This document shows positions 1-21,421 of a stretch of 64,000 nt of DNA, one piece after another. This stretch comes from a virus. The position numbers were made by a program, and so were the translations under genes. The DNA lies in the IMG/VR virus record IMGVR_UViG_3300021964_007369, positions 27,801 to 91,800 of that record; one strand, given 5' to 3'. Below the pieces are notes generated by a model that had not been told where the DNA came from, ran no database searches, and saw nothing but the letters and a program-made list of their open reading frames with translations. The first letter of the stretch is position 1, and the number at the start of each line of letters is the position of its first letter.

Positions 1-575
1 TGCTTTCGTGTGTTGTGAATATTTGCCAAGTATTCAACTATATCAAGAAATTCATCTATTAAAAATGTTTCTCCGCCTAAGAATGTGTATATTACACTTT
101 CTTTATCTCCAGTGTTATTTTCTATATGTTTATACAAACTTGTAAGAGCCGCTTCTTGCCATTCTGCATCAGGCTCTAAAATAGGTACACCTAATTTTTT
201 TGCCCATAAACTACTTACTTCTGGTATACAATATATGCATGTCTGATTACATTTACTAGAAAGTGCTATTTCAATTCTGTAGGAAAGATCATTTTTTAAA
301 TTAGGTGTTGACTTGTTTAACCAATTGTTCCAAGTGTTGTATTGACTATTAGGGTGGTTAGAGCTACAGGCTTCACAACCTTTAGGAAAATTATTATTTT
401 TTATCCAATACTGTTTTGCTTCTGTTAGTTCTTTGCGGTCGGTCCAAAACTTTGGGTCTGAAATTTCTTCTATTGTAGGTGTTTCAAGTTGTTGTCTTTT
501 ACAACAATTTACAACTTCTTTTCTATGGATGTTTAAGTTTATGTCCGTCCATAACCTACTGCAAGGAGTAATCAT
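1..575 (-). CDS. Radical SAM protein with N-terminal twitch module (3' part cut by window edge)
   Basis: The first 191 codons are visible; the gene continues beyond base 1. The ATG at 575-573 shares one base with the stop of the upstream oxygenase gene (TAATG), so the start is set by translational coupling. Visible cysteines: C5, C24-C25, then C67xxC70, then the radical SAM motif CNQTCIYC (C109, C113, C116) that binds the SAM-cleaving 4Fe-4S cluster, and the GGE motif at about 167-169 that contacts SAM. The cysteines before the core match the twitch module of the other radical SAM genes in this operon and probably hold an auxiliary Fe-S cluster. Known of the family: SAM cleavage to a 5'-deoxyadenosyl radical. 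The substrate is unknown. The 5' part is the more distant member of the set: its first motif reads CSRLW rather than FCxxPW. Confidence 0.85.
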   Translation of the reverse strand, partial: MITPCSRLWTDINLNIHRKEVVNCCKRQQLETPTIEEISDPKFWTDRKELTEAKQYWIKNNNFPKGCEACSSNHPNSQYNTWNNWLNKSTPNLKNDLSYRIEIALSSKCNQTCIYCIPEVSSLWAKKLGVPILEPDAEWQEAALTSLYKHIENNTGDKESVIYTFLGGETFLIDEFLDIVEYLANIHNTRK

Positions 576-1333
576 TAGAATGCCTTTGTTATGCTCATTA
601 ACTTTAATACATTTTCCCAAGTTTTTGGTATATTCATTACAAGATGGATACTATCGTTTACCCAACTGTGTGTTCTATGAGTCTTTGTTGTGTCTACATA
701 GTAAACACCGCCGGGCTTTATTGGAACTTTTGTGTGTTCCATTTCCCATTCGAATTCGTCTCTTGTTACATTCCAACTAGGAAATGCAACTACTCTAAAA
801 GTGTCTCTTGTAAGTTTAGGATGATCTTTATGCGGAGGAAAATATCCTCCAGCATTTGCTTTAACTAACATTGTTCTACCTAATGGTTTCCAATAGTCTA
901 ATAATTCATGTAAACTAGGAAGCATATTATATGCTTCTGTAGGAGTGTTGAATTCTGTTTCGCTTAAACGTCTGCCAGCTTTTTTACATGCTTCTGGCAT
1001 ACTCAACCCTTCTTCCATAGAAGCATCAGGTAACCCAAAAAGAGATATTCCTTCTCTGTCGTTCATTATACCTTCTCTACGTAGGTACGGTACCCATCGG
1101 TCATCAAGTGCTTCAACTTCTTTCATAAATTGACTTGGATCTATTTTTATACTTAGAGGCTCCCAAAAACTAAGCATGCCTAATTGAAGTTCACACTTTA
1201 GATCTTCGTTACTAGGATCTAAAGACTCTGGATTGTCTAACCATGTTTGATAATAGTTTGCTTGTGTAGCTCTATTCGCAAGAGGTATTAAATTAAGTTG
1301 TTTACCGTCTTTATCGTATTTTTTATAGTCCAT
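575..1333 (-). CDS. 2-oxoglutarate/Fe(II)-dependent oxygenase-like protein
   Basis: 252 residues. Iron-binding HxD is visible as H168-x-D170 in GGYFPPHKDHP, followed about 50 residues later by THRTHSW (H219 and H222), one of which would be the distal histidine. The segment KPGGVYYVDTTKTHR resembles the end of the double-stranded beta-helix in aspartyl/asparaginyl hydroxylase-like and other 2OG oxygenases, which hydroxylate a substrate with O2 and 2-oxoglutarate. Such oxygenases are frequent in marine T4-like phages. The start at 1333 lies 11 bases after the nitroreductase-like gene. No good ribosome binding site is visible, and a TAAATA-like motif at 1339-1346 sits too close to serve as a promoter. 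Substrate unknown; its place in the operon suggests it tailors the same product as the radical SAM enzymes. Confidence 0.75.
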   Translation of the reverse strand: MDYKKYDKDGKQLNLIPLANRATQANYYQTWLDNPESLDPSNEDLKCELQLGMLSFWEPLSIKIDPSQFMKEVEALDDRWVPYLRREGIMNDREGISLFGLPDASMEEGLSMPEACKKAGRRLSETEFNTPTEAYNMLPSLHELLDYWKPLGRTMLVKANAGGYFPPHKDHPKLTRDTFRVVAFPSWNVTRDEFEWEMEHTKVPIKPGGVYYVDTTKTHRTHSWVNDSIHLVMNIPKTWENVLKLMSITKAF

Positions 1334-1344
1334 ACTAATATTTA

Positions 1345-2055
1345 TTAGCGGACCACGTTGTTAAACCACTTCTTTGGCTTTTGTCCTGTATGTGTGACAC
1401 CGTCTTTGTATGTTGTAAAGCTGTGGTCTGTATTTGAAATACCTGTTCCGATACCGACGCTTATCATAGGTCTACCTATATAATCTTTGTTAAAATAAAA
1501 TGTTTGATCGTTGAAAGTTACATTTATTTTTTGAAGATTAGAACCAAATCTATTCCAAATTTTTTCAGCATATTCATAACTTGTATTGTTGTCTTGTTTA
1601 ATAGCCCAACCATCTACACAAGCAATTTGACAGGCATCGTATCCTAGTTGTAAAGTTTCGGAAACAAGAATACCAGCATGGAAAGAATTATTTCGTATTG
1701 CTTCTGTATTTTTAGAAATCTTAATATAACCTCTTTGTTCTTCTGTTAATATTTCATTTAGGTCCTGAGGAATTTTAATTTGAAAACTTGTAAACATATA
1801 CGGAGCATCTTGTAACGCCGTAAAATACTCATTGTGTCCTTGGTATTTGTCATCTGTAAAATAAATGTTTTCTACTAACCAATTTTTTAATGCTTCATCT
1901 TCTGGTGTAAGCAAACACCAAACATGATCAATAGATCCTAATTGACTAGGAATGTATTGTATCATTTCTACTAGATTGTCTATATCCTGTTGTGCTGGAA
2001 TGATACTACTGTCAAACGCTCTTACCGTCCACCTATTTTTCCATTTATTTAACAT
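1345..2055 (-). CDS. Nitroreductase-like flavoprotein
   Basis: 236 residues. The N-terminus RWTVRAFDSSIIP followed by a helix and a PSQLG segment resembles the opening RRSxRxF...P...PS region of the nitroreductase family, which binds FMN as a homodimer and uses NAD(P)H. A later segment, ILVSETLQLGYDA, matches the family's hydrophobic helix before the second FMN-binding stretch, and PMISVGIGTG lies where the family usually has a PxxxxxxG strand. The usual residues are only partly kept, so activity is uncertain. The ATG at 2055 shares one base with the stop of the radical SAM gene before it (TAATG). In natural-product pathways such enzymes oxidise or reduce ring systems; that role here is inference. 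Confidence 0.6.
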   Translation of the reverse strand: MLNKWKNRWTVRAFDSSIIPAQQDIDNLVEMIQYIPSQLGSIDHVWCLLTPEDEALKNWLVENIYFTDDKYQGHNEYFTALQDAPYMFTSFQIKIPQDLNEILTEEQRGYIKISKNTEAIRNNSFHAGILVSETLQLGYDACQIACVDGWAIKQDNNTSYEYAEKIWNRFGSNLQKINVTFNDQTFYFNKDYIGRPMISVGIGTGISNTDHSFTTYKDGVTHTGQKPKKWFNNVVR

Positions 2056-3389
2056 TAGCTCTTCTTTAAATTGCTGTGCTCAGATATTTCATTATATTCA
2101 TTATCGTAAATGCCAGGGTATTCTTTATTTAAAATATCTAATTCAGGTATTGCTTCAAATACATTTGTGTCTCTGCTAAAATCTAATACAGCACTTTTTC
2201 TTAAAAAGTTTATAGCACCTTGTTCACTGTGTGGTTTCTCTAATTCGTTATAGAAAGTTTTTAAGTTTTGAGGATTATGCACAAAAGTAGATTTTTCATA
2301 TCTTTTAATTTTTTTTCTAATTTCTTTTTTAAATTTATCAGGTAATACTTGTATGTTAAATGCTTTTGTAAATACCGGATTTAACGCAGGAGTAAATCTT
2401 TCATTGTCGCTTCTGTATAATTCTTTAAATTCTTCTAACATCTCCGGTAGCCTAAAAATATTATAACACCCTAAACTTATGATAGGACTACATCTAATAT
2501 CAGCTTCAACTAACTTACGAATATTAGAACTAACTATTTTCCAGTCAGTTCCGTATCTAATCCATTCAGCCCTTGCACCTAGTTCGTCCACACTATTTTC
2601 AATGTACAATCTATCCTTCTTCCATTTCTTCCAATAGTCGATTACATTTTTTCCTTTATAATCTAACTTTAAAAGATTAGAATTGTATTTCATTTTTACA
2701 TTATATTTTTTAAGATTATCTAATTTTTCTAATATGTACCAATGCTCGTCCATTACAAGTGGTTCGCCGCCTGCAAAATAAATTTTTTCTACATCATGTA
2801 TAGCATCGTCGACCCAACTAATTTTTTCTCCAAAGTTTTCAACTTTATCCATAGCGATAGTATCTTCTTCCGATAATACTAATGCTTGCATTAATCGACT
2901 CCTAGCATTGTCCGACGTCATGCTTTTATACAAACGGTTTGCTTCAATTGTCCACCTACTGCTAAATTGTGGTGTACACATAACGCAAGTCATATTGCAA
3001 ATATTACTAAAACGTAAATCCCAATACCGTATTTTAAAATCTGGCAGTGTACCATCTTCTTGAGTTGTAGGAATTATATCCATTACTTCGTCTGCATAGT
3101 TATGAGTGAAAGCCCATTGCCTAGGACTCTTTACACCAATCTTTTCATAATTTACACATTTATGACAAGTGTCCTCAGGCAATATACCATTAAGCATATC
3201 AACTCTAAGTTTTTTCATTTTGTCACCGTTAAATATTTCATCTATAGTTTTTTCTTTTACATTACCTAAGATTGTAGGATTTGCTCCACGCTGGTGACAA
3301 CAAGGCACAACATCACCGTTAGGATTAATTGCTAAGTGTGACCAAGGATGTATACATAAACTAGTTGATTTTAATTTATAAGGGTTCAT
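2055..3389 (-). CDS. Radical SAM protein with N-terminal twitch module
   Basis: 444 residues. The N-terminal module has C12 in LCIHPWSHLA, the pair C30-C31 after NPNGDVVP, and C75xxC78. The radical SAM core follows with CNMTCVMC (C131, C135, C138) and AGGEP at 206-210. The order auxiliary-cysteine module then core is the reverse of ordinary SPASM proteins and matches the family named twitch domain-containing radical SAM proteins. The downstream nitroreductase-like gene starts on the last base of the stop codon; the upstream unknown gene ends 4 bases before the start. The C-terminal 230 residues have no motif I recognise and end in LDILNKEYPGIYDN. Substrate unknown. Confidence 0.88.
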   Translation of the reverse strand: MNPYKLKSTSLCIHPWSHLAINPNGDVVPCCHQRGANPTILGNVKEKTIDEIFNGDKMKKLRVDMLNGILPEDTCHKCVNYEKIGVKSPRQWAFTHNYADEVMDIIPTTQEDGTLPDFKIRYWDLRFSNICNMTCVMCTPQFSSRWTIEANRLYKSMTSDNARSRLMQALVLSEEDTIAMDKVENFGEKISWVDDAIHDVEKIYFAGGEPLVMDEHWYILEKLDNLKKYNVKMKYNSNLLKLDYKGKNVIDYWKKWKKDRLYIENSVDELGARAEWIRYGTDWKIVSSNIRKLVEADIRCSPIISLGCYNIFRLPEMLEEFKELYRSDNERFTPALNPVFTKAFNIQVLPDKFKKEIRKKIKRYEKSTFVHNPQNLKTFYNELEKPHSEQGAINFLRKSAVLDFSRDTNVFEAIPELDILNKEYPGIYDNEYNEISEHSNLKKS

Positions 3390-3393
3390 ACTA

Positions 3394-4293
3394 CTATTTA
3401 ACTTCCTTTATTTTTTCAGATATCTTTTTGGCAATATGTTTAATACTGTTAATATCGTAATGGTACGGACTTCTGCCTAATCTATGCTGATCGTCTCCAA
3501 CAACTTCTTCCCAATCAATTTCTAATAGTTTTGCTCTATAAGGACGCATCTGATGTTTAATACCTAGATGTATACCTTTTTGAAACCTGTGTACATCATA
3601 CCAACTGTTTACATCAAAATGTTTTCCATTTGTAACTTTGTTTTTAAATATATGTGTAAAATTTCCAGTGACTGGAATATCTTGATAGTATCCTATCTTT
3701 TTGTTAATCCAACGTCTAGCTGGTGGAGTATACACTAATTGTATTCTATCCTCAAATAATCCTGTGACTAATTCAGCAAAACGTCTTCCCCATTCACCTT
3801 GCATATTCCAATTTTCTTTTTGATTCCAAAATCCTCTAAATACTAAGTCGTCATCATATGTACATACATTACGTTTATCGTTCAGTATATCTAATATGTT
3901 TTCAGGAAACTTTAATTTAGTAAGTTCACTTGCTGATTTTTCTTTGATTAGTTGCTTAATTAATGTTACATGTTCTTTATTGTATTGACAACGTGCTTCT
4001 GATTCTCTTGTAAAACTAGCAATTAGATAGTTGTCTTTTTTATTTGTTTTAGGAACTATATCAAAATAATCTTTGCTTACAATTTCTTTGTATATACGTC
4101 TGCCAAACGGATACTTTTTTGCATCACTTTTATTATACCATTTGTCAACAGCATCAGCAATATATCCAATAGGTGAAAACAAACTACCTATAGTAGTTGT
4201 ATCTAATCTTTGAAATGTATGTTGCGGATATTTTTTAATTAGTATTGGTATAGTATCTTCTAATTCACATCCGCCCCAGAGGAAGAAGTTCAT
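3394..4293 (-). CDS. Unknown protein, possibly SGNH/DUF6270-like
   Basis: 299 residues, not firmly recognised. The N-terminus MNFFLWGGCELED puts a GGC turn right after a beta strand, as in the first block of SGNH-type proteins, and the C-terminus has HRLGRSPYHYDINSIKHI, where such proteins keep the D/H block. The middle part NYLIASFTRESEAR could be the strand before the conserved E/R of DUF6270, but this is weak. A short motif, THIFKN followed closely by GKHFD, also occurs as THIFKNGKHYD in the glycosyltransferase-like protein at 13452-14471, so the two may share a small domain. It overlaps the upstream radical SAM gene by 4 bases (ATGA) and sits among modifying enzymes. Function unknown. Confidence 0.45.
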   Translation of the reverse strand: MNFFLWGGCELEDTIPILIKKYPQHTFQRLDTTTIGSLFSPIGYIADAVDKWYNKSDAKKYPFGRRIYKEIVSKDYFDIVPKTNKKDNYLIASFTRESEARCQYNKEHVTLIKQLIKEKSASELTKLKFPENILDILNDKRNVCTYDDDLVFRGFWNQKENWNMQGEWGRRFAELVTGLFEDRIQLVYTPPARRWINKKIGYYQDIPVTGNFTHIFKNKVTNGKHFDVNSWYDVHRFQKGIHLGIKHQMRPYRAKLLEIDWEEVVGDDQHRLGRSPYHYDINSIKHIAKKISEKIKEVK

Positions 4294-5438
4294 ATATCCA
4301 ACTCCGGAACTACATCTACTAAATTTTGATTTCGACTTTCGTCTAACTTTGCAGTATACTCTTTAAATGCATCTAATTTATTTGACCAATCTTCTGCCCA
4401 CATGTAATCTATAATGCCTTGCACTTTAGGCAAATCTATATACGGTCTTAGTCTAAGGGCGGCTAAATTTTTCAAATCTTTCGGTAAACATCTTATGTTT
4501 AGATATTCAGGATGATTTAAAATATTAAAATATATTTTATGTTCATAGGGTAATGCCCATTCAATTAATTTATCTAAGTGTAATATGTTGTACATCTGCA
4601 CTGTACAATGTATTTCAATAGTTGCGTTATAAAGTTTTCTAATATCCTGAAAGTTGCGTTCTATAGTAGCCCAGTTACTAGGATATCGTATGTATCTATC
4701 AAGTTCGCCTGTTGCATCAATACTACAATTTAATTGTACATGTTTAAACTTACTCCATTTCCATATTAAATCTTTAGGAACATTTGTAAGATTAGTGTTA
4801 TACTTTAATTTTATTTTATGTGCTGTTTTATTATCTATAAAATAATCAAGCAATCTATGCTGTTCTTTAATAATAGTTGGTTCGCCACCTGTTAGATATA
4901 TTTCATCGACTGTATTAGCAATGCTGAATAAATTTTCCCAAGTCTTTTCATCTTCAGGCCAATCCATATTACTTAATCGTTTATATTCACTTTCACTTAG
5001 AGCTTCTTCAACTAGATTCCATTCTTTGACCCACATACTACTTGCATACGGATTGCACATTCTACATTTTAAATTACATAAGTTGCCTAACCGTAAGTCC
5101 ACATATTTAATATCAAAAGGTGCATCTACTGTATACTTAATATCTTCTTGCCATTTATGATTCCATGCTTGTCTTGCACTACGCACACCTGCATCTTCTT
5201 CACGGAAACATCTTGTACACATTTCAGGACGTTCACCGTCAAGCATTTGCTTACGTATTTTTTTATATACTTCGCTATTCCATGCTTCTTCTAAGTTATC
5301 TTTGTTTAGTTTAAAAGGGGTGCCATCTTCTTTGGTAATAAAATTTTGTCCAGGAATAGAGTTACAACACACACGAAGATTGCCACTAGCATTGGTAGCT
5401 AGATGCATCCACGGAAGTATACAAAATGTTTTACTCAT
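4290..5438 (-). CDS. Radical SAM protein with N-terminal twitch module
   Basis: 382 residues. The N-terminal module reads FCILPWMHLATNASGN with C6, the pair C24-C25, then C74xxC77. The radical SAM core has CNLKCRMC (C121, C125, C128) and TGGEP at 183-187. Closely similar in layout to the genes at 5431-6630, 6620-7744 and 8714-10120, and probably a paralogue of them. The start overlaps the upstream gene by 8 bases through the junction TATGAGTAA, which is reused at other boundaries of this operon. The tail ends in NLVDVVPELDI, a short acidic C-terminal motif (D-x-VPE/PxF) also seen in several of its paralogues. Substrate unknown. Confidence 0.9.
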   Translation of the reverse strand: MSKTFCILPWMHLATNASGNLRVCCNSIPGQNFITKEDGTPFKLNKDNLEEAWNSEVYKKIRKQMLDGERPEMCTRCFREEDAGVRSARQAWNHKWQEDIKYTVDAPFDIKYVDLRLGNLCNLKCRMCNPYASSMWVKEWNLVEEALSESEYKRLSNMDWPEDEKTWENLFSIANTVDEIYLTGGEPTIIKEQHRLLDYFIDNKTAHKIKLKYNTNLTNVPKDLIWKWSKFKHVQLNCSIDATGELDRYIRYPSNWATIERNFQDIRKLYNATIEIHCTVQMYNILHLDKLIEWALPYEHKIYFNILNHPEYLNIRCLPKDLKNLAALRLRPYIDLPKVQGIIDYMWAEDWSNKLDAFKEYTAKLDESRNQNLVDVVPELDI

Positions 5439-6630
5439 ATCTTTTAAACTCCGGTACTATGTCAAACAGATTAGTGTCTCTACTTGCATCTAATTTTTTA
5501 CTAAATCTTAAAAACTGATCCCAGTTTTCAGATTTTTGTTCAGCAAGTAAAAAATTTAAATTAGTATTAATAAATCTTTCTATACGCTTTTTTCGAGAAG
5601 TACTTATATCGTATGTTTTAACTTTTTCTAAATATGCTTTGTATTTCTTTTCTGCTGTATCCTTTAATCCCACAGGCAATATTTGGGGGTTAATAAATTT
5701 AGGTGCCCATGCAATGTTTCCGTGTACAGGTAAATCTAATTCAAATGTAAAGTAGTCATATGCTTCAGGCAGTCCCATTACATTCCAAGCACTATAACAT
5801 AATGCCGCTCTGGCTTCAAACTTATCACCTAGTTCTAATTTAACTTTCTTTAAGTTTTCTGCAATTTGTTTTGTGTTTGCTTCAGTACGAATATATTCAT
5901 TTAGTTCTGGATGACCGTCTATACTCAAACTTATATCAACACTTCTAAAATCTTTCCATGCTTCTAGTGCATCAAACTTTCCGTACTTTAGTTTACTTAA
6001 ATTTGTGCTGTACTTAACTGTGATATGTTCACCATGGGGCCTCAGTGCCTCTAATACCTTATAATGCATAGGATCCATTAGAGGTTCTCCGCCAGCAAAC
6101 TCCACTATTTCCATAGTTGGTGCTAGTTTTTCTATGTTAGCTAAGAACTCTGGATTGTTATAGTTTTCTTGTCTAGTTGTATCATTTTTCCAACCTATGT
6201 CTTCATATTCGTCTTTGACTTTAGCCCAATCTTTTAACCATGTCGTTGAAAGGTCTGGCTTACATGTTCTACAACGGAAGTTACATAAGTTACTAAGTTT
6301 TAATTCTAGCACTGGAATATTAAACGGTACTTGTGTATGTTCTTCGTCTTCATCAAACGGATACATCCAATTGCGGGTCTTGTTCATAGTTTGACGCATA
6401 CTAACACTGCCTTGGTCTTCTAATTGATAACAAGGCCAACAACCTTCTGGACGTTCATCGTTCAAAAGTTCTTTACGCAACTTTTGCATATGTTTATTAT
6501 TCCAAATTTGTTCTAGTGTTTCATCAGCAATATTACCTACAGTTTGCATACTTCTACAACAAGGAGCAACGTTACCGTCAACTCTTGTGCTTAGATGTAT
6601 CCAGGGTAATATACAAAAATTATTCTTCAT
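5431..6630 (-). CDS. Radical SAM protein with N-terminal twitch module
   Basis: 399 residues from the ATG at 6630. I prefer this start over one 33 bases upstream because it aligns MKNNFCILPW with the starts of its paralogues and overlaps the upstream stop by 11 bases, as is usual in this operon. Motifs: C6, C24-C25, C64xxC67 in the N-terminal module; radical SAM CNFRCRTC (C116, C120, C123); AGGEP at 179-183. The C-terminus NLFDIVPEFKRYE contains the tail motif shared by the paralogues. The last codons YE-stop form the TATGAGTAA junction with the next gene. Known of the family: radical chemistry on peptides or small molecules; the substrate here is not known. Confidence 0.9.
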   Translation of the reverse strand: MKNNFCILPWIHLSTRVDGNVAPCCRSMQTVGNIADETLEQIWNNKHMQKLRKELLNDERPEGCWPCYQLEDQGSVSMRQTMNKTRNWMYPFDEDEEHTQVPFNIPVLELKLSNLCNFRCRTCKPDLSTTWLKDWAKVKDEYEDIGWKNDTTRQENYNNPEFLANIEKLAPTMEIVEFAGGEPLMDPMHYKVLEALRPHGEHITVKYSTNLSKLKYGKFDALEAWKDFRSVDISLSIDGHPELNEYIRTEANTKQIAENLKKVKLELGDKFEARAALCYSAWNVMGLPEAYDYFTFELDLPVHGNIAWAPKFINPQILPVGLKDTAEKKYKAYLEKVKTYDISTSRKKRIERFINTNLNFLLAEQKSENWDQFLRFSKKLDASRDTNLFDIVPEFKRYE

Positions 6631-7744
6631 TCCAAATTTTCCTAAACTTTGGTTCAACATCAAACAACTTTTCGTTTCTGATTTTGTCTAATTTCTCAGT
6701 ATATTCTTTAAACTTCTTCCATTTGCTTTTATCTCGATTTTGAGTTTTTAACCATTTAACAATGTTATCAAAGCTAGGTTCTTTACTGTATCTTGCAATT
6801 AACTTTCTCTTTGTCTTGTCTGGTAAATTAGCAGGGTCTTGATAAGTCGGAAAATAACTAATATTACCAAATGCTTTACTATAATTTTCATGAGGGCCAA
6901 AATATTTTTTTATAACAGATAGCATTTGTTGTAGATGAAAGATATTATACATTGTAACTGTAATACTAATACCAGGAATAAAATTGGGCAGTCGGTCTCG
7001 CATATACTCCATATTTTTTACTGCTGTTTCAAGTGGATGATTAGGTCCGCCTCTTATATATTTGTAAAGTTCTCCTGTAGCTTCTAAACTTAGATTACAT
7101 TTTATTTTTTTGAACTGTTTTAATTTTTCAATATAATAATCACTTATGCCTGTGCCATTTGTAAAAACAACAAGTGTTGTATTTCTTTTAAAATTATCAT
7201 CTAATCTATCTATAAAGTTTAAGAACTGGTCAGTAACAAACGGCTCGCCACCTTTTACTTCTAATACAAAGTCGTCATAAGTTACATTATTACAATATTC
7301 AACAATTTGATCTAACCTATAATCAGGCATATCATATTTTGGTGTTATAACTCTTTCTAAATCAAATCCGCCTTCTACAAGTTTCTTTTCATCAGCAATC
7401 CATTTGGTGCTATTTCTACTTTCGCACATTCTGCATTTTAAATTACATGTATTACCAAATGTAATATCCAAATAAGTAATCTCGCCTTCTTTGGCGTCGC
7501 CCTTATTTCCTCGCCATTCTCGTCTACTCGGAATGCCTTTTTCTTCTGTAATCTTACAAACTTCACAACCTTTGTGAAGTAATCCTTTTTCTTTTACCTC
7601 ATTGTATGCGTTTGCATACCAATCAAATATATTTTCTTCGCCTTCTGGAGACACTGCATCTGTAAATATACAACAAGGTTTAATCGTACCTCTGTTGTTT
7701 ATATTCATATGATGCCATGGGCTTAAACAAAATTTCTCAGACAT
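6620..7744 (-). CDS. Radical SAM protein with N-terminal twitch module
   Basis: 374 residues from the ATG at 7744, chosen because MSEKFCLSPWHHM aligns with its paralogues and the ATG lies inside the end of the upstream gene (ATGTCTGA, 8-base overlap). Motifs: C6, C24-C25, C60xxC63, radical SAM CNLKCRMC (C100, C104, C107), KGGEP at 164-168. The C-terminus has KLFDVEPKFRKIW, the same short acidic tail motif as its neighbours. It is the shortest complete twitch-type member here. Its role is unknown; the run of four similar genes (4290-7744) suggests that a series of related positions or substrates is modified. Confidence 0.9.
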   Translation of the reverse strand: MSEKFCLSPWHHMNINNRGTIKPCCIFTDAVSPEGEENIFDWYANAYNEVKEKGLLHKGCEVCKITEEKGIPSRREWRGNKGDAKEGEITYLDITFGNTCNLKCRMCESRNSTKWIADEKKLVEGGFDLERVITPKYDMPDYRLDQIVEYCNNVTYDDFVLEVKGGEPFVTDQFLNFIDRLDDNFKRNTTLVVFTNGTGISDYYIEKLKQFKKIKCNLSLEATGELYKYIRGGPNHPLETAVKNMEYMRDRLPNFIPGISITVTMYNIFHLQQMLSVIKKYFGPHENYSKAFGNISYFPTYQDPANLPDKTKRKLIARYSKEPSFDNIVKWLKTQNRDKSKWKKFKEYTEKLDKIRNEKLFDVEPKFRKIWNEE

Positions 7745-12630: not shown

Positions 12631-13465
12631 AACCAATCCTCATAAATCTTGTATATTTTTCTAAAGGCAATTTTCCTTCATACAATACTGTTGTAAGAGG
12701 TGCTTGGCTTGCAAATTCATCTAAATCATTTACGCAATTAACATGCTCATCTATTTCAAAAAAGTTATTACTTTGTAACACAACTAATTTACCTTTTGGT
12801 ATTTTTGTAAACCATTCTGTAAAATTTTCTATATGTTCACAACTTGTATTAATAATTGTATCAGGCTTATCTGTTATAGGATAACTCATCCTATTATTGG
12901 CATTGCTCCAATACTGCCAAGTATGTGTATCGTAACTAATATCGTGTATATCTGATACTAACGCTTTAAATTTCCATTGGTCAACAAACCAAGGCTTGTT
13001 AAAAACTTCTGCAATATTAACTGTTGATTCGTCAATATCAAAACTACGTATTTTGTTTATACGAAGATTACTTTCAAATAACATAGTAGCTAGAGTAGCG
13101 TACCAACCTGCACATAAAAATACTGTTCCTATATCAGGAGTAACTTTTCTAAGTTCTTGTACTAGCCAAACCTTACTTTGTAGTTGGCCGCGGGCAAAAC
13201 AATCTTCATCAATAATAGTTTCGTTTATAGTAAAATTTTTAAAAGCTGAAGTAAACTGTGTCCCTACAAACTTATCTAATAGAGGCCATAACTTCCATTT
13301 ATTATCTTCCATTACTAGTTTGCGTAGATCATCTTTGTTATTATCTTGTACAATCCTAAAAATGCTACTGAGGTCTTTGTCAATATATGCTCTACGTAAA
13401 TCGCTTAGTGTACTCTTTGTAGGATATAATATTTCGTATCTATCTAGTAATTCATGTATTTGCAT
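12623..13465 (-). CDS. Class I SAM-dependent methyltransferase-like protein
   Basis: 280 residues. TVFLCAGWYATLA (about 114-126) matches the first strand and glycine turn that bind SAM, although the usual GxGxG is reduced to AGWYA. FDIDESTVNIAE (about 142-153) provides the acidic residue that holds the ribose of SAM, and INTSCEHIENF lies where the post-motif strand is expected. The N-terminal ~90 residues are helical and have no motif I recognise. Start and stop both overlap neighbours (14 and 8 bases). Similar proteins occur in other T4-like marine phages as hypothetical methyltransferases. The acceptor is unknown; a sugar or a small molecule of the same pathway is inference. Confidence 0.65.
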   Translation of the reverse strand: MQIHELLDRYEILYPTKSTLSDLRRAYIDKDLSSIFRIVQDNNKDDLRKLVMEDNKWKLWPLLDKFVGTQFTSAFKNFTINETIIDEDCFARGQLQSKVWLVQELRKVTPDIGTVFLCAGWYATLATMLFESNLRINKIRSFDIDESTVNIAEVFNKPWFVDQWKFKALVSDIHDISYDTHTWQYWSNANNRMSYPITDKPDTIINTSCEHIENFTEWFTKIPKGKLVVLQSNNFFEIDEHVNCVNDLDEFASQAPLTTVLYEGKLPLEKYTRFMRIGYV

Positions 13466-14471: not shown

Positions 14472-15193
14472 TCGTACACCTCCTTTGCAAAAATTTCGTG
14501 CATTTGTTCAGTTGGATGTGACCCTGGTAATCTTGTATGCATTTTATTACTATAATCTAGTAACGTTTGACCAAAGTTTACTTTTACATCAAGTAAATTA
14601 TATAATTCGCAATCACGATTCTTTGTAGGGTCAATAGAAAAATGACACATTCCTGAATCTATTATTAACACAGGAATGTTTCTTGATGCTAATAAATTTT
14701 TTGTTCCAGTAATTACATTATATGTACGCCATAGGTTGTCGTAATCATTTGGCTCTGCTAACAAATTTGTTAACCAACTAGGACGTTGAGGGAGAAAACT
14801 TCTAAAATTATATTCAGTATGTTCACTGTGCATTGCATGACCAAATCTTGCAGGGTGTGTCAACATAATTATTACTAGATCGGGCTTACGGAAATTTCTT
14901 GATATTTGTTTGAGAACACGCCAACATATTTCTTCGTTACTAATTCCGCCCATAGAAACATTTTGTACTTCAAAATACGGATCTAATTTTTGTAACTTGG
15001 CAGGCCAAGCACGATCTCGTTGTCCGTTGAGTACTTCTTTGTATTTTGGTTTGTCATGATTCCACAAATTTGCTAATTGTTTCTGATGTTGTTCATGCAG
15101 GTTTTTGTTTACATCGCTTTCAAGATACCCTGGTACAAGTTCTACCAACTCATCACCTGCCGTAAAACTACAACCTGAAGTTATGATTTCCAT
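14450..15193 (-). CDS. SGNH/GDSL-like hydrolase or transferase
   Basis: 247 residues. The N-terminus MEIITSGCSFTAGDE has the GCSF turn typical of a branch of phage SGNH-like proteins in which the nucleophile is the Ser after Cys. The C-terminus has LPGSHPTEQMHE, matching the block V region with a catalytic His. VIIMLTHPARF in the middle fits the strand before the third block. It overlaps the radical SAM gene upstream by 13 bases and the glycosyltransferase-like gene downstream by 22. It is only distantly similar to the SGNH-like protein at 11872-12630. Probable role: acyl transfer or ester cleavage on the product being made; substrate unknown. Confidence 0.65.
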   Translation of the reverse strand: MEIITSGCSFTAGDELVELVPGYLESDVNKNLHEQHQKQLANLWNHDKPKYKEVLNGQRDRAWPAKLQKLDPYFEVQNVSMGGISNEEICWRVLKQISRNFRKPDLVIIMLTHPARFGHAMHSEHTEYNFRSFLPQRPSWLTNLLAEPNDYDNLWRTYNVITGTKNLLASRNIPVLIIDSGMCHFSIDPTKNRDCELYNLLDVKVNFGQTLLDYSNKMHTRLPGSHPTEQMHEIFAKEVYECMTSYM

Positions 15194-16536
15194 GAGTCGT
15201 AAACTCCTTTACAATAGTCATAAAACGCAGTATATTCAGGAAACGTGTTTAATAAGTTAGTTCCAATACGTTTATCATTTTCTGTAAAGAAACTATAAAA
15301 GTCTCTTTGTCCTTGTTTAATTTTTTGCGGATCAACAGGATTTTGATACATATAATCACGTACACGTTGCATCTTTGCAATTTCAACACTAGTAAAATAG
15401 TCTTTGTTGTTACTCATGTACTCTAAGTGTTCATCCATAAACTTGTTAAACATTTGAGGTAATATATTGATCATCCAATGCGGCGGCTCTTTTAGATATG
15501 GCGTATCAAATGCAAGTGCTTCTTTTCCGTATATCTTGCGCCAATGCATAACACGTTGTAAAAAGTTTTGGAATGTTGCTACACATAATACGTTAAATGT
15601 ACACATGATGTTAACTTTGAATCCACGCTTAATTGCTTCTTCAAAGTTTCTCTCCCAATGATCACATTTTAATCCTGTACGCATATACTCTGCTTGTTCT
15701 CCCCAACCTTCAATACTTGTAAACAAACTAAACTTTCGTATCTTCTTTTGATCTAATAAACTTTGTACTCTATCATACATCCTGTCCATTTTTGCAGTAG
15801 TAACACCTAAGTTACTATTAATGCTAATTTCTAATTGTGGTGCTGGTTCTTTTTCTAATAAGTCAAAGAACTGCATTGCACCGGGATTCATTAGAGGCTC
15901 GCCTCCTGTAATTCTAAGTGTGTGTAGATCTTTACGTAGATCAGGCCACCATTTCCAAAATGCCTCAATATAAGGATTTTCATCCTTGGGTGCGTAGTAA
16001 CGTCCGTTATCTAAAAATTCTGTGCCGTATTGATTATATGTTAAATCATAATTGCCATGTTTCTTAATCTCATCCATCCACTTTGTACTTGCTTGGGGAC
16101 AACAGTATCCACAACGATAATTACACCCGTTACCAAAACTAACTTCTAAATAACGTGGATTTACATTTTCTAACCAATGCTTTTTTGATATCTCTTCAAT
16201 CTCTGGTTCAGACCAATCACTTGCACTGTGTATCATCCTATCTGATATTTGATCTCCTTCAAGGTCTTCAATGTTCCAGCAATAGTAACATTCTTCAGGA
16301 CGCTCACCTTCTAACATTTTTTTACGCTGTTGTTTTTTCCATGCTGTATTGTGTAAAGCACTTGGATCAGCTTTTATTTCAGCTAGAGGTATATGCTGTG
16401 GACGTGGATGATAGCAACTATGATTATCACCTGTGTGCAAATACAATGTTTCATGAAGCCACTTCATTGTGCAAAATCCTTTGCCAATTTTGTTTAATCT
16501 ATCACGTACATCTTTAATATCGTCAACTCTACTCAT
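15181..16536 (-). CDS. Radical SAM protein with variant (class B) N-terminal twitch module
   Basis: 451 residues. The N-terminal module reads FCTMKWLHETLYLHTGDNHSCYHP: C22, one Cys at 41 followed by YHP in place of the CC pair, and C83xxC86. The radical SAM motif is CNYRCGYC (C138, C142, C145), and C146 directly follows. TGGEP lies at 210-214. It is paired head-to-tail with the similar gene at 16529-17920, with which it shares this variant module, the H-N-T/K-rich segment after it and the overall length; the two are clearly paralogues distinct from the class with PW...CC. Start overlap is 8 bases via TATGAGTAG. Substrate unknown. Confidence 0.9.
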   Translation of the reverse strand: MSRVDDIKDVRDRLNKIGKGFCTMKWLHETLYLHTGDNHSCYHPRPQHIPLAEIKADPSALHNTAWKKQQRKKMLEGERPEECYYCWNIEDLEGDQISDRMIHSASDWSEPEIEEISKKHWLENVNPRYLEVSFGNGCNYRCGYCCPQASTKWMDEIKKHGNYDLTYNQYGTEFLDNGRYYAPKDENPYIEAFWKWWPDLRKDLHTLRITGGEPLMNPGAMQFFDLLEKEPAPQLEISINSNLGVTTAKMDRMYDRVQSLLDQKKIRKFSLFTSIEGWGEQAEYMRTGLKCDHWERNFEEAIKRGFKVNIMCTFNVLCVATFQNFLQRVMHWRKIYGKEALAFDTPYLKEPPHWMINILPQMFNKFMDEHLEYMSNNKDYFTSVEIAKMQRVRDYMYQNPVDPQKIKQGQRDFYSFFTENDKRIGTNLLNTFPEYTAFYDYCKGVYDSWKS

Positions 16537-17920
16537 AATAATCCTTTAATGACGGGAACACATCTACAAAATTTGTATTTCTACGTTTGTCATGTTGTTG
16601 AAAGAATAACTTAAAATTCTTTTTTGCTGTTTCTCTGTCAAAGCCTGTATCAGCCTTAATCCAGTTTATTAGTCTTTTAACTTTGTTTATTTCAAAATCA
16701 CTAAATCCTTGGAATTCATTTTTATCACCGTCCTTATTATATTCCATATATTCTACACATTGTTCTAACTGTATAACACGTTCGGGCATTAGCTTAGGAT
16801 TCATATAATCAGGATTTGTTAATTGTGGAATATCAAACCATATCATTTGTCTTTGTTTGCTGTACTGTGTTCGTAACTTGTGTATTTGTTGCATATAATT
16901 AAATATCCCATTATAGCTAAGTGTATTGAATGTTATGATAAATGTTAAACTGTGTTTATCACATTGCTCTAAATATTGTACAACATTTTTATAAAATACA
17001 TCAAAGTCTAAACCGTTACGAATATATTCCGCTTGTTTGCCCCAACTGTCTAAACTTGCAAACAACATAAAATGATCTAGGTTAGGTGTAAGTGTTTGCA
17101 TACTATTAATAAACTTTTGCCATTGTCCTTTAGGAGGGCAACAGTTACTTGTAATACTCATATGCAAATCTTCTTTAGGATTTTCTTTTACATAATCAAA
17201 CATTTTAAAAGTATTTTTATCCATCAACGGTTCGCCACCGGTCATTCTAAATGTTTGAAGTGTAGGATAAATTTCTGGTAACCATTTCCAAAATGCATTT
17301 AAGTACATGTTGTCAGGACTGTTATCTACCTTTTCCATATACTGCATATCATTATGCTTGCGATTATGTAAATTGTACGGTCCTTCTTTTTTAATTTCTT
17401 TCATCCATTCTGTACTCAATATAGGAGAACAATATGAACACTTAAAATTACATGCTTGGTTAAAATTAACTTCTACATATCTTGGGCGGGCGTTGCCATC
17501 CATACCTAATTGCTTTGCTTCTTCTATAAGACCTGGTTCGTATACATCTTTACTTCTATATGCTCTATCACTTAGTTGTGAACCACTGTCTTCAGTTTGC
17601 CAACAGAATTCACACTCAGGTGGGCGTATTCCGTTAAGCATCATACCACGCTGTTCTTTTTTATGCTTGGTATTATGTAAGGCGCTGTTATCATCTTCGA
17701 GCTCTGTTTTTGGAATGAGATGACTTTTGGGATGATAACAGCTATGTGTCTTTCCGGTCGGTATATGTATGCTTACATTAAACCATTTGGCTAGACAAAA
17801 ACTTGGGCTAACTTCATTAAGTTTTTCTAACACGACTTCAGCATCGTGCATATATCGACTTTCAAACTTGCCGTCGATTTTTCTTAATTCATTACCTTTT
17901 ATGTTTCTATTATATTTCAT
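16529..17920 (-). CDS. Radical SAM protein with variant (class B) N-terminal twitch module
   Basis: 463 residues. FCLAKWFNVSIHIPTGKTHSC contains C42 and C61, followed by YHPKSH; then C103xxC106, the radical SAM motif CNFKCSYC (C157, C161, C164), and TGGEP at 227-231. Paralogue of the gene at 15181-16536. The ATG overlaps the upstream glycosyltransferase-like stop by 4 bases (ATGA); an internal ATG at codon 24 is possible but the coupled start is preferred. The end, DYYE-stop, forms the TATGAGTAG junction. The first 40 residues carry no cysteine and vary from the paralogue. Substrate unknown; the position directly after a glycosyltransferase-like gene hints at action on a glycosylated or sugar-like substrate. 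Confidence 0.9.
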   Translation of the reverse strand: MKYNRNIKGNELRKIDGKFESRYMHDAEVVLEKLNEVSPSFCLAKWFNVSIHIPTGKTHSCYHPKSHLIPKTELEDDNSALHNTKHKKEQRGMMLNGIRPPECEFCWQTEDSGSQLSDRAYRSKDVYEPGLIEEAKQLGMDGNARPRYVEVNFNQACNFKCSYCSPILSTEWMKEIKKEGPYNLHNRKHNDMQYMEKVDNSPDNMYLNAFWKWLPEIYPTLQTFRMTGGEPLMDKNTFKMFDYVKENPKEDLHMSITSNCCPPKGQWQKFINSMQTLTPNLDHFMLFASLDSWGKQAEYIRNGLDFDVFYKNVVQYLEQCDKHSLTFIITFNTLSYNGIFNYMQQIHKLRTQYSKQRQMIWFDIPQLTNPDYMNPKLMPERVIQLEQCVEYMEYNKDGDKNEFQGFSDFEINKVKRLINWIKADTGFDRETAKKNFKLFFQQHDKRRNTNFVDVFPSLKDYYE

Positions 17921-18840
17921 TCAATATCTATAAACTGCTGATTACTATTTCTACTAGGATTTTGATATACTGTTTTAAAGAAAGCACTTTGTTCTGGATC
18001 TAAAGGATCAGTTGCAATAGGAATATCTAATTCATGTTTAAGTGTTTCTCCTAGTCCCATAATTTCGTATGGCAACTTATCTTCAGTAATTCCACTATAA
18101 TTCTTTTTCCATATATCATTTAGGTATTCAAAGTCACGTACATTTACATAGTCCCAATCAGTACACATAGTTTTATACAATCCTTCTCTTGCTCCATAGA
18201 TTGCCCAATTACCATTTTCTACATCTGCACCTACCATTAACCAAATCCAAAGTCTATGCAAATTTTTCCAATGACCGTTTAAGAATTCTTGCTTGGTAGA
18301 TTTTACACCTCTGTCAAGTGCCATCTTAACTCCTTCACGGAATCCAGCACGCCAGGCTTGTTGTGGAGTATAATTATTCCACACATCAGAATAGCAACTA
18401 TTTTGTTGTATATACTTTAAGTCCCAACAAAAGTCTACCTGTGCATGTGGATTATCCGGATCAGCATTCTCGTGTGTTTTCATATTAAGTACAAACTCTT
18501 TAGGCCAACATTTAAGTCCACCGTTGCCGTATAACAATCCGTTAATTACATTCTTGCCACACCAACTAATAACACAATTTTCTAAATCTGTATGTTCATC
18601 AAAGTCTATTTCTTGCTCTAAGAACTTTGGGTGTACTGTGTTATCGCCATCAACTGTAATAAATCTGCTTGTTTCACTTAGGTTAGCACAGGCTTTGTGT
18701 GCGGCGTCTGAGCCTTCTACACCGTGTACACGTTTTGCCCATGGTACTTTAGTAAGTAAATCTGCATAATTTTTTTCAGCATTAGGTTCATCATAACTTA
18801 AATAGATGATATCACAGTCAATAACTTTAAATTTGTTCAT
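17917..18840 (-). CDS. Glycosyltransferase-like protein with VDGD motif
   Basis: 307 residues. IIYLSYDEPNAEKNY at the N-terminus, AHKACANLSETSRFITVDGDNTVHP with DGD at 64-66, and GNGGLKCWP further on give a GT-A-like layout: a DxD that would bind a metal and a nucleotide sugar. It is a paralogue of the protein at 13452-14471 but lacks that protein's extra N-terminal domain; an FREGVKMALDRG segment aligns with its FRECCKLASKV segment. The C-terminus is longer and hydrophilic. Start and stop overlap neighbours by 4 bases each. Known of such phage proteins: found with sugar-modifying genes. Donor, acceptor and even the sugar nature of the substrate are unproven. Confidence 0.6.
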   Translation of the reverse strand: MNKFKVIDCDIIYLSYDEPNAEKNYADLLTKVPWAKRVHGVEGSDAAHKACANLSETSRFITVDGDNTVHPKFLEQEIDFDEHTDLENCVISWCGKNVINGLLYGNGGLKCWPKEFVLNMKTHENADPDNPHAQVDFCWDLKYIQQNSCYSDVWNNYTPQQAWRAGFREGVKMALDRGVKSTKQEFLNGHWKNLHRLWIWLMVGADVENGNWAIYGAREGLYKTMCTDWDYVNVRDFEYLNDIWKKNYSGITEDKLPYEIMGLGETLKHELDIPIATDPLDPEQSAFFKTVYQNPSRNSNQQFIDIE

Positions 18841-19361
18841 GTTAGGTCCTTGTAATTATATTTTGCAAATTGGCGTTTTGTATAGATACTAAAGTTCTTA
18901 CTACTATCGAATAAGCAAGAATTATCTTTTCGTAAATCAACTCTAAATAAATGATATAATATGTGAGGATTATCTTTAGCTGTAATGCTAAAACTTGTTT
19001 CACTGTCTAGGCTTGTTGTATCTAATATTTTTTTAATTCTGTCATTTATATTAATTTTAAGTTTATCACCGTCATAGGTTATTTCAATATCTGCATCATC
19101 TATTCCGGATTCAATTTTTGTATATCCTTGATATGTTTGTAGTATTTCTGCTTCATGCTTTAGTTCAAACTTTGAGTCTATCGTATTAAACACAACTCTA
19201 TAATCTGCTTTATTATCTTTGAAGTTTAAAATTCTTTCAACAGATGAAAAATCAACTTCAATATTATCATATCCTTCTGCTTTACTTGGTCCTACAGAAT
19301 AAATTTTTCCAGTTGCAATTTCAAAATTCACAATCATTTGTGGAGTACAATCTATATTCAT
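18837..19361 (-). CDS. Unknown protein, beta-rich
   Basis: 174 residues, not recognised. It is predicted by eye to be mostly beta strands (alternating hydrophobic and polar residues, e.g. DADIEITYDGDKLKININD) with no cysteine cluster, catalytic motif, signal peptide or membrane segment; single cysteines lie near both ends. It overlaps the upstream GT8-like gene and the downstream glycosyltransferase-like gene by 4 bases each, so it is co-translated with two sugar-related enzymes. It may be a binding or structural partner of those enzymes or of a virion protein. I do not assign a function. Confidence 0.55.
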   Translation of the reverse strand: MNIDCTPQMIVNFEIATGKIYSVGPSKAEGYDNIEVDFSSVERILNFKDNKADYRVVFNTIDSKFELKHEAEILQTYQGYTKIESGIDDADIEITYDGDKLKININDRIKKILDTTSLDSETSFSITAKDNPHILYHLFRVDLRKDNSCLFDSSKNFSIYTKRQFAKYNYKDLT

Positions 19362-20176
19362 AACACTTTACTTTCGTATTTTTTAATTAAACTTTCTGTA
19401 ACAAAATGATTTTCTGTATAATGAAATATACCTTCTTGAATAAAATTACCAATTATAAGTTTTACATCATCTGTAATTGTATAAGATACTCTGTCCTGCC
19501 AAGTAGAAGATTCGTTGCGCCAATCCTGGGCTCTTGATTTCATATGTGTAAATGTAGGCAAATTAATTTTAGGATTAGTAACTTGTTCTTCGATGTCCAT
19601 TGCTTTGATAGCAATGCTTGCAGTTACATCCATACTTGCATTTTTAGGATATTTTTTAGGAACATATTTTCCATAAAATAATTCTCTGTTGTTAATGATT
19701 AATTCTAAAAATTTATAAAATTCTAATGCTAAATTAGATTTTTTAAAATAATGATATCCAAAGTAAACGTTAGGTAAGTTGTTTACAGTAAATGCTTCTC
19801 TATAATAATCACTAGTTACTATATTATTTCTATATGTATGTACTTTGTTTGTAAAGAACAGTTCATAATTTTCAAGTAATTTCCAATAATGGCTTACATC
19901 TGTAAGAAATAACATATCGCTATCTAATATAACAGTTTCTTCATACGGTGATATATGATATAGTTTCCATCTATGTTCTACAGCATAACGTTGCTCTTCG
20001 ATCCAAGGTATATCTATAATATTATCAAATAGGCTTTTGTATTTTTCTGGCACTGGCGTGTCTGTTGCAATACTTACGCTATCAATTTGTTGTGTGTGCT
20101 TTATACTCATTGCACATAGACACGCTTGTATTACATATTCAGGTCCTGTAGCAAGTATTAGATATCCTTTACTCAT
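19358..20176 (-). CDS. GT8-like glycosyltransferase
   Basis: 272 residues. YLILATGPEYVIQACLCAMSIK at the N-terminus and ISPYEETVILDSDMLFL with DSD at 85-87 match the nucleotide-sugar binding half of GT8-type (glycogenin/LgtC-like) GT-A enzymes. The next gene upstream (20169-21029) shares these blocks, so the pair arose by duplication. A later segment THMKSRAQDW may supply the His often found near the end of GT-A folds. The ATG overlaps the upstream stop by 8 bases via TATGAGTAA. Expected role: transfer of a sugar from a nucleotide donor in the cytoplasm of the infected cell; acceptor unknown. Confidence 0.7.
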   Translation of the reverse strand: MSKGYLILATGPEYVIQACLCAMSIKHTQQIDSVSIATDTPVPEKYKSLFDNIIDIPWIEEQRYAVEHRWKLYHISPYEETVILDSDMLFLTDVSHYWKLLENYELFFTNKVHTYRNNIVTSDYYREAFTVNNLPNVYFGYHYFKKSNLALEFYKFLELIINNRELFYGKYVPKKYPKNASMDVTASIAIKAMDIEEQVTNPKINLPTFTHMKSRAQDWRNESSTWQDRVSYTITDDVKLIIGNFIQEGIFHYTENHFVTESLIKKYESKVL

Positions 20177-21029
20177 ATATCATTTCCTCACGTATACGAT
20201 CGTTAAGACTAAATTTATTCATTACATGCATATCAAGTCCTTTTGTTGAAATTGCATTGTAATGACCAGTTGCTCCTTGTTGTTCAACTAAAAATGTATT
20301 TTCGCCTGCTTCCATTTCTATAAAAATGTCTCTATCTAATGTATAATATAATTTTCCTGGAAATTCTTTAGCATATCTTCCTGTTGTACCGTTTAGAATA
20401 TGTAATGCTATACTAAATGCATGATCATTTCTAAATGTTGTTGTACCAACATCATAGATTAAACTGTAATGTTCCCAATTACGTACTACATGTCTTAGTG
20501 TATCAAAAAATAACGAAGCATATTTTCCTTTGCGAAAGAAAAAACAAGTAGCCCAGTAAAAATCTATCCCAGTATCATTAATGTAGTCAAACTCATAGTC
20601 ATGTCTCCAACCTGATATATCAGTAGCGTCTTTATAAATTAGTAAATCATTTTTATCCTGAAATGCTTTTAGTAATTTTTTACTGTTAATCACATAATCT
20701 GTATCAATAACAATAGTTTCATCGTACGGCGACAGGTCATATGCCATATGCCTGTGCGAATTTCTAAATTGTAATACCTTGTAAGACGTTGACCCGTCAT
20801 AGTATCGTTTATAATTTAAAGGTAGTATACGTCGATTTTCTAAATCTATAATTTTATCAAATAGATTTCTATACTTTTTATATTTGCTGTTGAAATGAGC
20901 TCTATCAGTGGTTACTAACGTTACAGGTATGTTTAAAAATTGTTTGGCTCTTTTAGCAACAAAACACGCTTGAAGTACATAGTCAACATTATCATTATTT
21001 ACAGCAAATAGTAATATGCCTCTACTCAT
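20169..21029 (-). CDS. GT-A-type glycosyltransferase-like protein
   Basis: 286 residues. ILLFAVNNDNVDYVLQACFVAKRAK and LSPYDETIVIDTDYVINS with DTD at 109-111 give the same nucleotide-binding layout as the gene at 19358-20176. FYWATCFFFRKGKYASLFFDTL further on resembles the acceptor-side region of GT8-like proteins, and an HYNA segment near the C-terminus may provide a metal-binding His. It overlaps the 115-residue first gene of the operon by 8 bases (TATGAGTAG). The assignment rests on motifs and on the paralogue; donor and acceptor are unknown. Confidence 0.68.
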   Translation of the reverse strand: MSRGILLFAVNNDNVDYVLQACFVAKRAKQFLNIPVTLVTTDRAHFNSKYKKYRNLFDKIIDLENRRILPLNYKRYYDGSTSYKVLQFRNSHRHMAYDLSPYDETIVIDTDYVINSKKLLKAFQDKNDLLIYKDATDISGWRHDYEFDYINDTGIDFYWATCFFFRKGKYASLFFDTLRHVVRNWEHYSLIYDVGTTTFRNDHAFSIALHILNGTTGRYAKEFPGKLYYTLDRDIFIEMEAGENTFLVEQQGATGHYNAISTKGLDMHVMNKFSLNDRIREEMIYE

Positions 21030-21369
21030 ATTTCAGCAACCCTAAAACTTTTCTATTTTTTATTAACTTATTATACTCTGTATGAAATCTATTTGAAGCA
21101 GTAAAATACACGTTCTTAATTTCTTCTAAGAAATCAGTAGGTGTCACTTCAACAGGTTGAGAATTGTCGTCAATAAGAATGAGAGAGTCTTGATTGCTGG
21201 TTGCCATATAACTAACAAAATTTATGAGTTCAGGATCTACTGTAAATTTAGAACCGTTGTGGTAATAAATTAGATCTTCTTGATACTTTTCGTTTAGTAT
21301 ACGCTTTTGATTGTTTAATGTTACATTAAAGTTAGAGAACTCTAATGCTTTTTCTAGTCTTTTGTCCAT
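21022..21369 (-). CDS. Small conserved-type phage protein of unknown function, first gene of the accessory operon
   Basis: 115 residues. ATG at 21369 with AAGGAATGAG as ribosome binding site; a sigma70-type promoter lies 24-52 bases upstream. The sequence is helical at both ends (RLEKALEFSNFNVTLNNQKRILNEKY and FHTEYNKLIKNRKVLGLL) with a short beta hairpin LILIDDNSQPVEV in the middle. No cysteines or catalytic motif. The middle reads like a ligand or partner binding strand followed by an acidic helix. Being first and best placed for expression it could be a scaffold or regulator for the operon, but that is inference. I do not recognise the family with confidence. Confidence 0.7.
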   Translation of the reverse strand: MDKRLEKALEFSNFNVTLNNQKRILNEKYQEDLIYYHNGSKFTVDPELINFVSYMATSNQDSLILIDDNSQPVEVTPTDFLEEIKNVYFTASNRFHTEYNKLIKNRKVLGLLKYE

Positions 21370-21392
21370 ATCTCATTCCTTATACTTGTTAC

Positions 21393-21421
21393 AGTATACG
21401 ATATTTAAGACTAAATGTCAA
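21393..21421 (-). promoter_or_regulatory. Sigma70-type promoter of the accessory operon
   Basis: On the minus strand TTGACA (21421-21416), a 17-base spacer, then TATACT (21398-21393). Perfect -35 and near-consensus -10, with the first ATG about 24 bases downstream of the -10. The gp55 and gp47 promoters have the same TTGACA and 17-base spacing. This indicates reading by host RNA polymerase with its housekeeping sigma factor early in infection, before gp55 acts. Confidence 0.8.

Follow-up and report, generated by a model that had tools for sequence, protein, structure and literature searches.

Gene content of the radical SAM block

The window analyzed here is a stretch of 64,000 nucleotides comprising bases 27801–91800 of a 91.8-kb contig from a large marine virus of bacteria (IMG/VR record IMGVR_UViG_3300021964_007369). 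Directly behind the tail-fibre genes and on the same strand, it carries a block of genes for radical S-adenosylmethionine (SAM) enzymes and glycosyltransferases, which we tentatively read as a phage-encoded glycan-tailoring pathway. The block extends 6.8 kb leftward past window base 1, to contig position 21019. As a whole, it contains 11 radical SAM genes (Pfam detected 11 radical SAM proteins), eight with an N-terminal twitch domain and three with C-terminal SPASM-like ends. Its other genes include two glycosyltransferases of GT8 type, a further pair of probable transferases, and several 2-oxoglutarate (2OG)-oxygenase-type genes. An earlier note on this DNA had counted ten radical SAM genes in the window; these were confirmed within 1–21369 (o1, o4, o6–o11, o18, and o19) as eight twitch-type, one SPASM-type (7737–8717), and one GNLGDP-type (10128–11195). 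The search left of base 1 that it had proposed yielded the eleventh, at contig 24598–25719, with its own promoters. Most genes of the minus-strand run from o24 to o1 overlap or abut, and a promoter (21421–21393) stands at its head. The features are as follows (window coordinates; aa, amino acids).

22408–22415, minus: late-type promoter TATAAATA before tail gene o25; the 91.8-kb contig has four copies of this motif
21393–21421, minus: sigma-70-type promoter TTGACA-N17-TATACT, operon start; 11/12 consensus positions
21022–21369, minus: o24, 115 aa, opens the operon; flanked in every case by tail gene o25 and the GT8 pair
20169–21029, minus: o23, GT8-type glycosyltransferase; family profile against glycogenin-1, E 4.6e-6, D-x-D kept
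19358–20176, minus: o22, GT8-type glycosyltransferase; family shared with o23; phrog_1903
18837–19361, minus: o21, 174 aa, variable; no significant family match
17917–18840, minus: o20, probable glycosyltransferase from an unnamed but conserved family; in 86/132 distinct loci, invariant D64/D66, no PDB match
16529–17920, minus: o19, N-twitch radical SAM; NF033640 315 bits, cluster cysteines kept
15181–16536, minus: o18, N-twitch radical SAM; PF04055 38 bits, cluster cysteines kept
14450–15193, minus: o17, SGNH-like by motif only (GCS and SHP..H); no Pfam match
13452–14471, minus: o16, probable glycosyltransferase; family shared with o20
12623–13465, minus: o15, putative class I methyltransferase, core gene; in 83/132 distinct loci, no profile match
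11872–12636, minus: o14, SGNH/GDSL-like; PF00657 E 0.039, under the cut-off
11663–11890, minus: o13, 75-aa predicted three-helix protein, core gene; linked to radical SAM genes in all loci fetched with o13
11182–11673, minus: o12, kinase-fold-like; weak Pfam kinase matches, E 0.006
10128–11195, minus: o11, core gene for a GNLGDP radical SAM enzyme whose C-terminal end is SPASM-like; 45%-identity subfamily in 69 loci, commonly next after o13
8714–10147, minus: o10, N-twitch radical SAM, core gene; subfamily in 74 loci
7737–8717, minus: o9, SPASM-type radical SAM; PF04055 E 3.6e-13
6620–7801, minus: o8, N-twitch radical SAM; NF033640 233 bits
5431–6663, minus: o7, N-twitch radical SAM; Pfam match, cluster cysteines kept
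4290–5438, minus: o6, N-twitch radical SAM; NF033640 405 bits, AlphaFold2 predicted local distance difference test (pLDDT) 94.7
3394–4293, minus: o5, no family assigned; no profile match
2055–3389, minus: o4, N-twitch radical SAM; NF033640 320 bits
1345–2055, minus: o3, nitroreductase-like by the earlier label only, not confirmed; no match in Pfam, PHROGs, or NCBIfam
575–1333, minus: o2, 2OG-type oxygenase; invariant HxD...H triad, 38/132 distinct loci
1–620, continuing to contig 27164, minus: o1, N-twitch radical SAM, 418 aa in full; NF033640 155 bits

Left of base 1 follow, in order, an oxygenase-like gene, the eleventh radical SAM gene, a fatty-acid desaturase gene, a pair of TauD-type genes, and a further two that were not assigned, and the left end of the block (contig 21019) faces plus-strand genes. 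The minus-strand block is interrupted by a plus-strand gene of 236 aa with no family assigned (contig 25794–26504), relatives of which occur in 19/132 distinct array loci. An open reading frame of 4948 aa (28370–43216, minus strand) separates the baseplate wedge gene from the tail-fibre genes, and the tandem repeats in the window are small ones only.

Sequence diversity of the radical SAM enzymes

Alignment of all eight twitch proteins showed that the CxxxCxxC motif and four N-terminal Cys residues were invariant, leaving both sets of cluster cysteines intact. The N-terminal auxiliary-cluster Cys residues preceding CxxxCxxC were also kept in a 61-sequence alignment of o6 relatives. These features and the radical SAM core are shared with NF033640 (N_Twi_rSAM), against which o1, o4, o6, o8, and o19 were scored: o4 (320 bits), o6 (405), o8 (233), and o19 (315) exceeded the cut-off of 170 bits, and o1 (155) fell just under it. 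NF033640 is a named family for which we found no function, whereas in the present phages its members form arrays of 5–21 per record.

Relatives were sought by single-protein queries because the eight twitch enzymes were too diverged for a joint profile. No pair of radical SAM enzymes in the window exceeded 35% identity, whereas orthologues in other loci reached 95%. Grouping at 45% identity gave 183 radical SAM subfamilies in 98 loci. A subfamily was duplicated within a locus only twice, whereas 48 such cases were expected from 2000 label shuffles, the lowest of which gave 31. Given these three results, distinct jobs fit the radical SAM enzymes better than recent tandem amplification. The ratio of nonsynonymous to synonymous substitution rates (dN/dS) was 0.03–0.49 where estimable, dS being often saturated, and array genes are under purifying selection wherever this could be estimated.

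In the twitch enzymes, the N-terminal region with the auxiliary-cluster cysteines matched the twitch of the aminocyclitol dehydrogenase BtrN (E 1.9e-8). The AlphaFold model of o6 matched many radical SAM cores at a low template modeling (TM) score (about 0.4), so it does not separate sugar from peptide substrates. Viperin-like antiviral nucleotide synthesis was dropped as a candidate function, the fold likeness being confined to the common radical SAM core.

Distribution and organization of the arrays

A query with o6 retrieved 80 IMG/VR loci, giving 82 together with the window contig and a cultured phage; these carried 1 to 11 radical SAM genes per locus (median, 6). Twitch radical SAM genes were present in 50/50 longer records, with 5–21 genes each. 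The array recurred in >130 distinct loci, and the block is therefore not a chance assembly. These counts bear out the impression of the earlier note that so many radical SAM genes in one phage operon are unusual. Its proviso that such genes might occur singly and at random, or be decayed, does not hold, as the arrays recur and selection is purifying where estimable.

Among bacterial genomes of one class, 2/274 exceeded the twitch-family cut-off, one through a phage-like contig with tail genes binned into a metagenome-assembled genome (MAG) and the other with a single twitch-family copy; none of 14 control genomes did. Based on these counts, the twitch family is mainly, yet not exclusively, viral in the sampled genomes. 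The MAG concerned, the gammaproteobacterial MED685 (L164, L167), includes a phage contig with radical SAM arrays.

A cassette consisting of a transferase, the putative methyltransferase o15, o13, the GNLGDP radical SAM o11, and the twitch radical SAM o10 was recurrent; o15, o13, o11, and o10 were all present in 44/142 distinct loci, most commonly in the order o15-o13-o11. The operon head, o25 (tail)-o24-GT8-GT8-o20, was near-invariant where visible: among the 35 distinct loci carrying o24, o25 was found in 33/35 and GT8 in 35/35. Behind the core, the arrays differ, with accessory genes swapped between phages. Such high variability among relatives would be expected if unrelated cargo had piled up neutrally at a hypervariable site following the tail fibres. 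We consider that explanation highly improbable, since core order and promoter are conserved, cysteines are intact, dN/dS is low where estimable, and the one-per-locus composition is non-random.

Promoters and expression timing

A promoter matching the consensus at ≥11/12 positions was found at the operon head in 22/31 distinct loci, compared with 141/2880 background upstream regions. In the contig, the same sigma-70 class also precedes GTP cyclohydrolase, exonuclease, late sigma factor, and SbcD-type genes. The late-promoter motif TATAAATA occurs four times only in the 91.8-kb contig, below the base-composition expectation, and its three minus-strand copies all lie at gene starts, preceding the baseplate hub gene, tail gene o25, and the eleventh radical SAM gene; the motif thus seems to be avoided elsewhere. 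Because a conserved near-consensus sigma-70 promoter stands at its head, the operon is probably transcribed early, as the earlier note had proposed, despite the tail-fibre genes directly ahead on the same strand. A late assignment of the block, suggested by its placement after tail genes, was overturned by this promoter.

The same neighbourhood bears on whether the enzymes modify the tail fibres or other virion proteins of the phage itself, by glycosylation and radical SAM edits that would change receptor binding or hide the virion. This alternative is retained because the run begins right behind the tail-fibre genes with a near-invariant o25-o24-GT8 adjacency, and transcription from the late-type TATAAATA before o25 could read through into the operon. 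We nevertheless regard it as unlikely: the operon has its own conserved promoter, of a class that also precedes sigma and replication-type genes, and T4-like tail-fibre neighbourhoods commonly harbour unrelated cargo (PMC7029224).

Companion genes and the 75-aa protein o13

The family profile of o22 and o23 matched glycogenin (GT8) over profile positions 4–106. These phage GT8s were detected by family profile only, being too diverged for Pfam, and Pfam GT8 was therefore not detectable as a general companion of the arrays. Genes o16 and o20 form one conserved family with an invariant D-x-D. Comparison with solved structures gave no match for o20/o16, o15, U3, U4, or U7, and comparison with cultured phages gave none for o13, o20, and o23. 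Thus, among four genes previously labelled glycosyltransferases, two (19358–20176 and 20169–21029) were assigned to GT8 by profile, whereas those at 13452–14471 and 17917–18840 lacked a structural match, though their D-x-D is invariant. The 2OG label for 575–1333 gained support from a triad invariant across 11 relatives, and the o2 family was the commonest accessory after the core and the GT8 pair. The methyltransferase label of o15 stands on motifs and found no profile match; among the SGNH, kinase, and nitroreductase labels, weak matches were obtained for o14 and o12 and none for o17 and o3.

Companions in related arrays include a homologue of inosamine-phosphate amidinotransferase (L008:4574-5620; 1bwd, E 1e-25), a carbamoyltransferase, and a sulfotransferase, as well as a B12-type radical SAM protein (L041:17343-18965) and a borderline QueC-like PP-loop protein (L005:20048-20791); the amidinotransferase homologue and the last two recur among the arrays. 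At the left end of our contig (438–1951), phosphomannomutase-type and NAD-dependent epimerase genes possibly supply nucleotide sugars.

Protein o13 is conserved over its whole length (73% mean column identity in 46 sequences), and radical SAM genes lay nearby in every locus fetched with it. Its AlphaFold2 model (pLDDT 83) is a compact three-helix domain that matched no PDB fold, including carrier proteins and the PqqD/RRE leader-binding domain (RRE, recognition element of ribosomally synthesized and post-translationally modified peptides, RiPPs). Since there was no fold match at all, we rejected o13 both as an acyl/peptidyl carrier, a reading prompted by a Ser at a helix start, and as an RRE. 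The strict radical SAM linkage of this small, highly conserved protein, usually just ahead of o11, could point to a RiPP-like pathway or one for a diffusible small molecule, in which o13 would be the substrate, a partner binding the leader, or a scaffold, and the top fold match of the o6 model was SkfB, a RiPP maturase. However, the o6 matches reflect the common radical SAM core and also include viperin, BlsE, and MoaA, and end-to-end conservation and the compact model of o13 do not suit a precursor. Pfam scans of the block proteins revealed no RRE/PqqD leader-recognition domain, protease, or transporter. No precursor with a variable core was found in the packed operon, where o13 and o24 are the only small candidates and overlaps leave no gaps for another. 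A pathway of this kind therefore appears quite improbable.

Hypermodification of phage DNA bases against restriction was considered as a further function for a chain of oxygenase, radical SAM, transferase, and kinase. Combinations of oxygenases, transferases, and radical SAM enzymes are known in phage DNA hypermodification, the promoter is early-type, and genes for GTP cyclohydrolase I (FolE) and a QueE-like protein lie elsewhere in the contig (10388–11975, left of the window). The latter, however, suggest a separate 7-deazaguanine pathway outside the block. Thymidylate-synthase-type genes, a type to which hydroxymethylases belong, were found in 2/12 large related records, our own contig being a fragment, and Tet/JBP oxygenases in 0/12, where the control likewise gave no match. 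We judge this explanation very unlikely.

A possible glycan-tailoring pathway acting on the host envelope

We tentatively interpret the block as a modular pathway, encoded by the phage, for tailoring glycans of the host envelope, a possibility we hold with somewhat less than even confidence and whose substrate and chemistry we infer. Host RNA polymerase would transcribe the operon early, and each radical SAM or 2OG enzyme would make one specific change on sugar or cyclitol residues, such as epimerization, dehydrogenation, dehydration, hydroxylation, or similar. The glycosyltransferases would attach the modified residues, and the product may re-coat the host envelope glycan (lipopolysaccharide or its counterpart), which would keep competing phages from adsorbing or hide receptors. 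We favour a glycan over a peptide as the target, since neither a variable precursor nor a leader-binding domain was found in the packed operon. The GT8 pair at the operon head in all 35 distinct o24-carrying loci, the amidinotransferase, carbamoyltransferase, and sulfotransferase of related arrays, the phosphomannomutase-type and epimerase genes, and the BtrN match were counted in favour, as were one-per-locus subfamilies, the conserved sigma-70 promoter, purifying selection wherever estimable, the gene neighbourhood in Vibrio phage K566, and the host-surface role proposed for pelagimyophage glycosyltransferases (PMC7029224).

Several points weigh against this interpretation. Flippase, polymerase, O-antigen ligase, and bactoprenol transferase were all missing from the Pfam matches of the block proteins, and the pathway would thus depend on host machinery for attaching and exporting its product. 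No enzyme activity or substrate of the twitch family is reported in the open-licence literature searched. LpxC exceeded the cut-off in only 1/48 records, the cultured Vibrio phage K566, and a lipid A link is consequently not general. Placement right after the tail-fibre genes suits virion-protein modification equally. Of the tailoring pathway proposed in the earlier note, the co-transcribed, phage-borne character is supported, and a glycan is favoured over a peptide; its product may end up on the surface of the host, on proteins of the virion, or at another site.

Because related viruses carry differently assembled versions, the block looks like a mix-and-match pathway for an unusual sugar. 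A more specific and rather doubtful proposal is a virus-borne combinatorial assembly line, in which a fixed core (o13 as scaffold or substrate, GNLGDP and twitch radical SAM enzymes, methyltransferase, and glycosyltransferases) would combine with non-redundant radical SAM, 2OG, and transfer enzymes particular to each lineage. In the infected cell this would yield glycopeptides, or new lineage-specific sugars resembling cyclitols or aminosugars.

Relationship to known phages and systems

Baseplate wedge and SbcC-type proteins placed the virus nearest, among cultured phages, to jumbo myoviruses, for example Salicola SCTP-2, Agrobacterium Atu_ph07, Sinorhizobium Phosso, and Pseudomonas PA5oct; jumbo-type myoviruses are also the source of the related loci. 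The wedge gene was found in 31/50 longer records, the others being fragmentary or too diverged, and related records reached 236–328 kb. These searches led us to drop a pelagimyophage identity, drawn from the literature on the host recognition cluster. That cluster resembles the present region as a variable tail-fibre region with GT8-type glycosyltransferases, which were proposed to alter the host surface, and radical SAM cassettes, touched on only in passing (PMC7029224). The pelagimyophage cluster lies between VrlC and gp14; our block lies behind a baseplate wedge gene and tail fibres, and no gp14 was seen on its left flank.

The K566 locus (L003, 11962-23241) encodes four N-twitch-type radical SAM enzymes, two GT8s, a GT4-like gene, an annotated PagP, and LpxC (E 1.3e-40); by neighbourhood, the GT8, LpxC, PagP, and companion enzymes suggest a link to envelope glycans or lipid A. 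Its authors interpret the island, VPK566_0302-0314 in K566/K567, as acquired and as serving anti-defence, and describe lipid A genes in it (PMC12028318). This island shares the radical SAM family and GT8 genes, here adjoining LpxC/PagP, but is smaller and lacks o13 and the core cassette; that study does not comment on its radical SAM genes. LpxC was rejected as a general array companion.

Multi-radical-SAM marine phages have already been counted in the literature. Tasman Sea phages are enriched in radical SAM (PMC7150976), and a similar number in one genome, 12 radical SAM genes, is given for the T4-like Tara environmental genome TARA_ERS488813_N000010 in a passage that counts them as Fe-S proteins only and describes no operon, cassette, promoter, or pathway (PMC5332604). 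The present organization was not found described: the open-licence literature yielded no account of the core cassette, o13, the one-per-locus composition, the promoter, or a twitch-family function. Phage serotype conversion by O-antigen modification would be alike in that phage glycosyltransferases alter the host surface glycan. It differs in that the block has no GtrA/GtrB-type or acetylase pair (no Pfam family for a flippase with bactoprenol glucosyltransferase, or for an O-acetylase, among the block proteins scanned) and many radical SAM steps instead.

If the envelope reading is correct, jumbo-type marine phages would constitute a large reservoir of uncharacterized radical SAM chemistry in exchangeable pathways, and phage remodelling of bacterial surfaces would be chemically far richer than the known glucosylation and acetylation switches. 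The twitch radical SAM family would gain a biological role, for which the K566 island would allow tests in culture.

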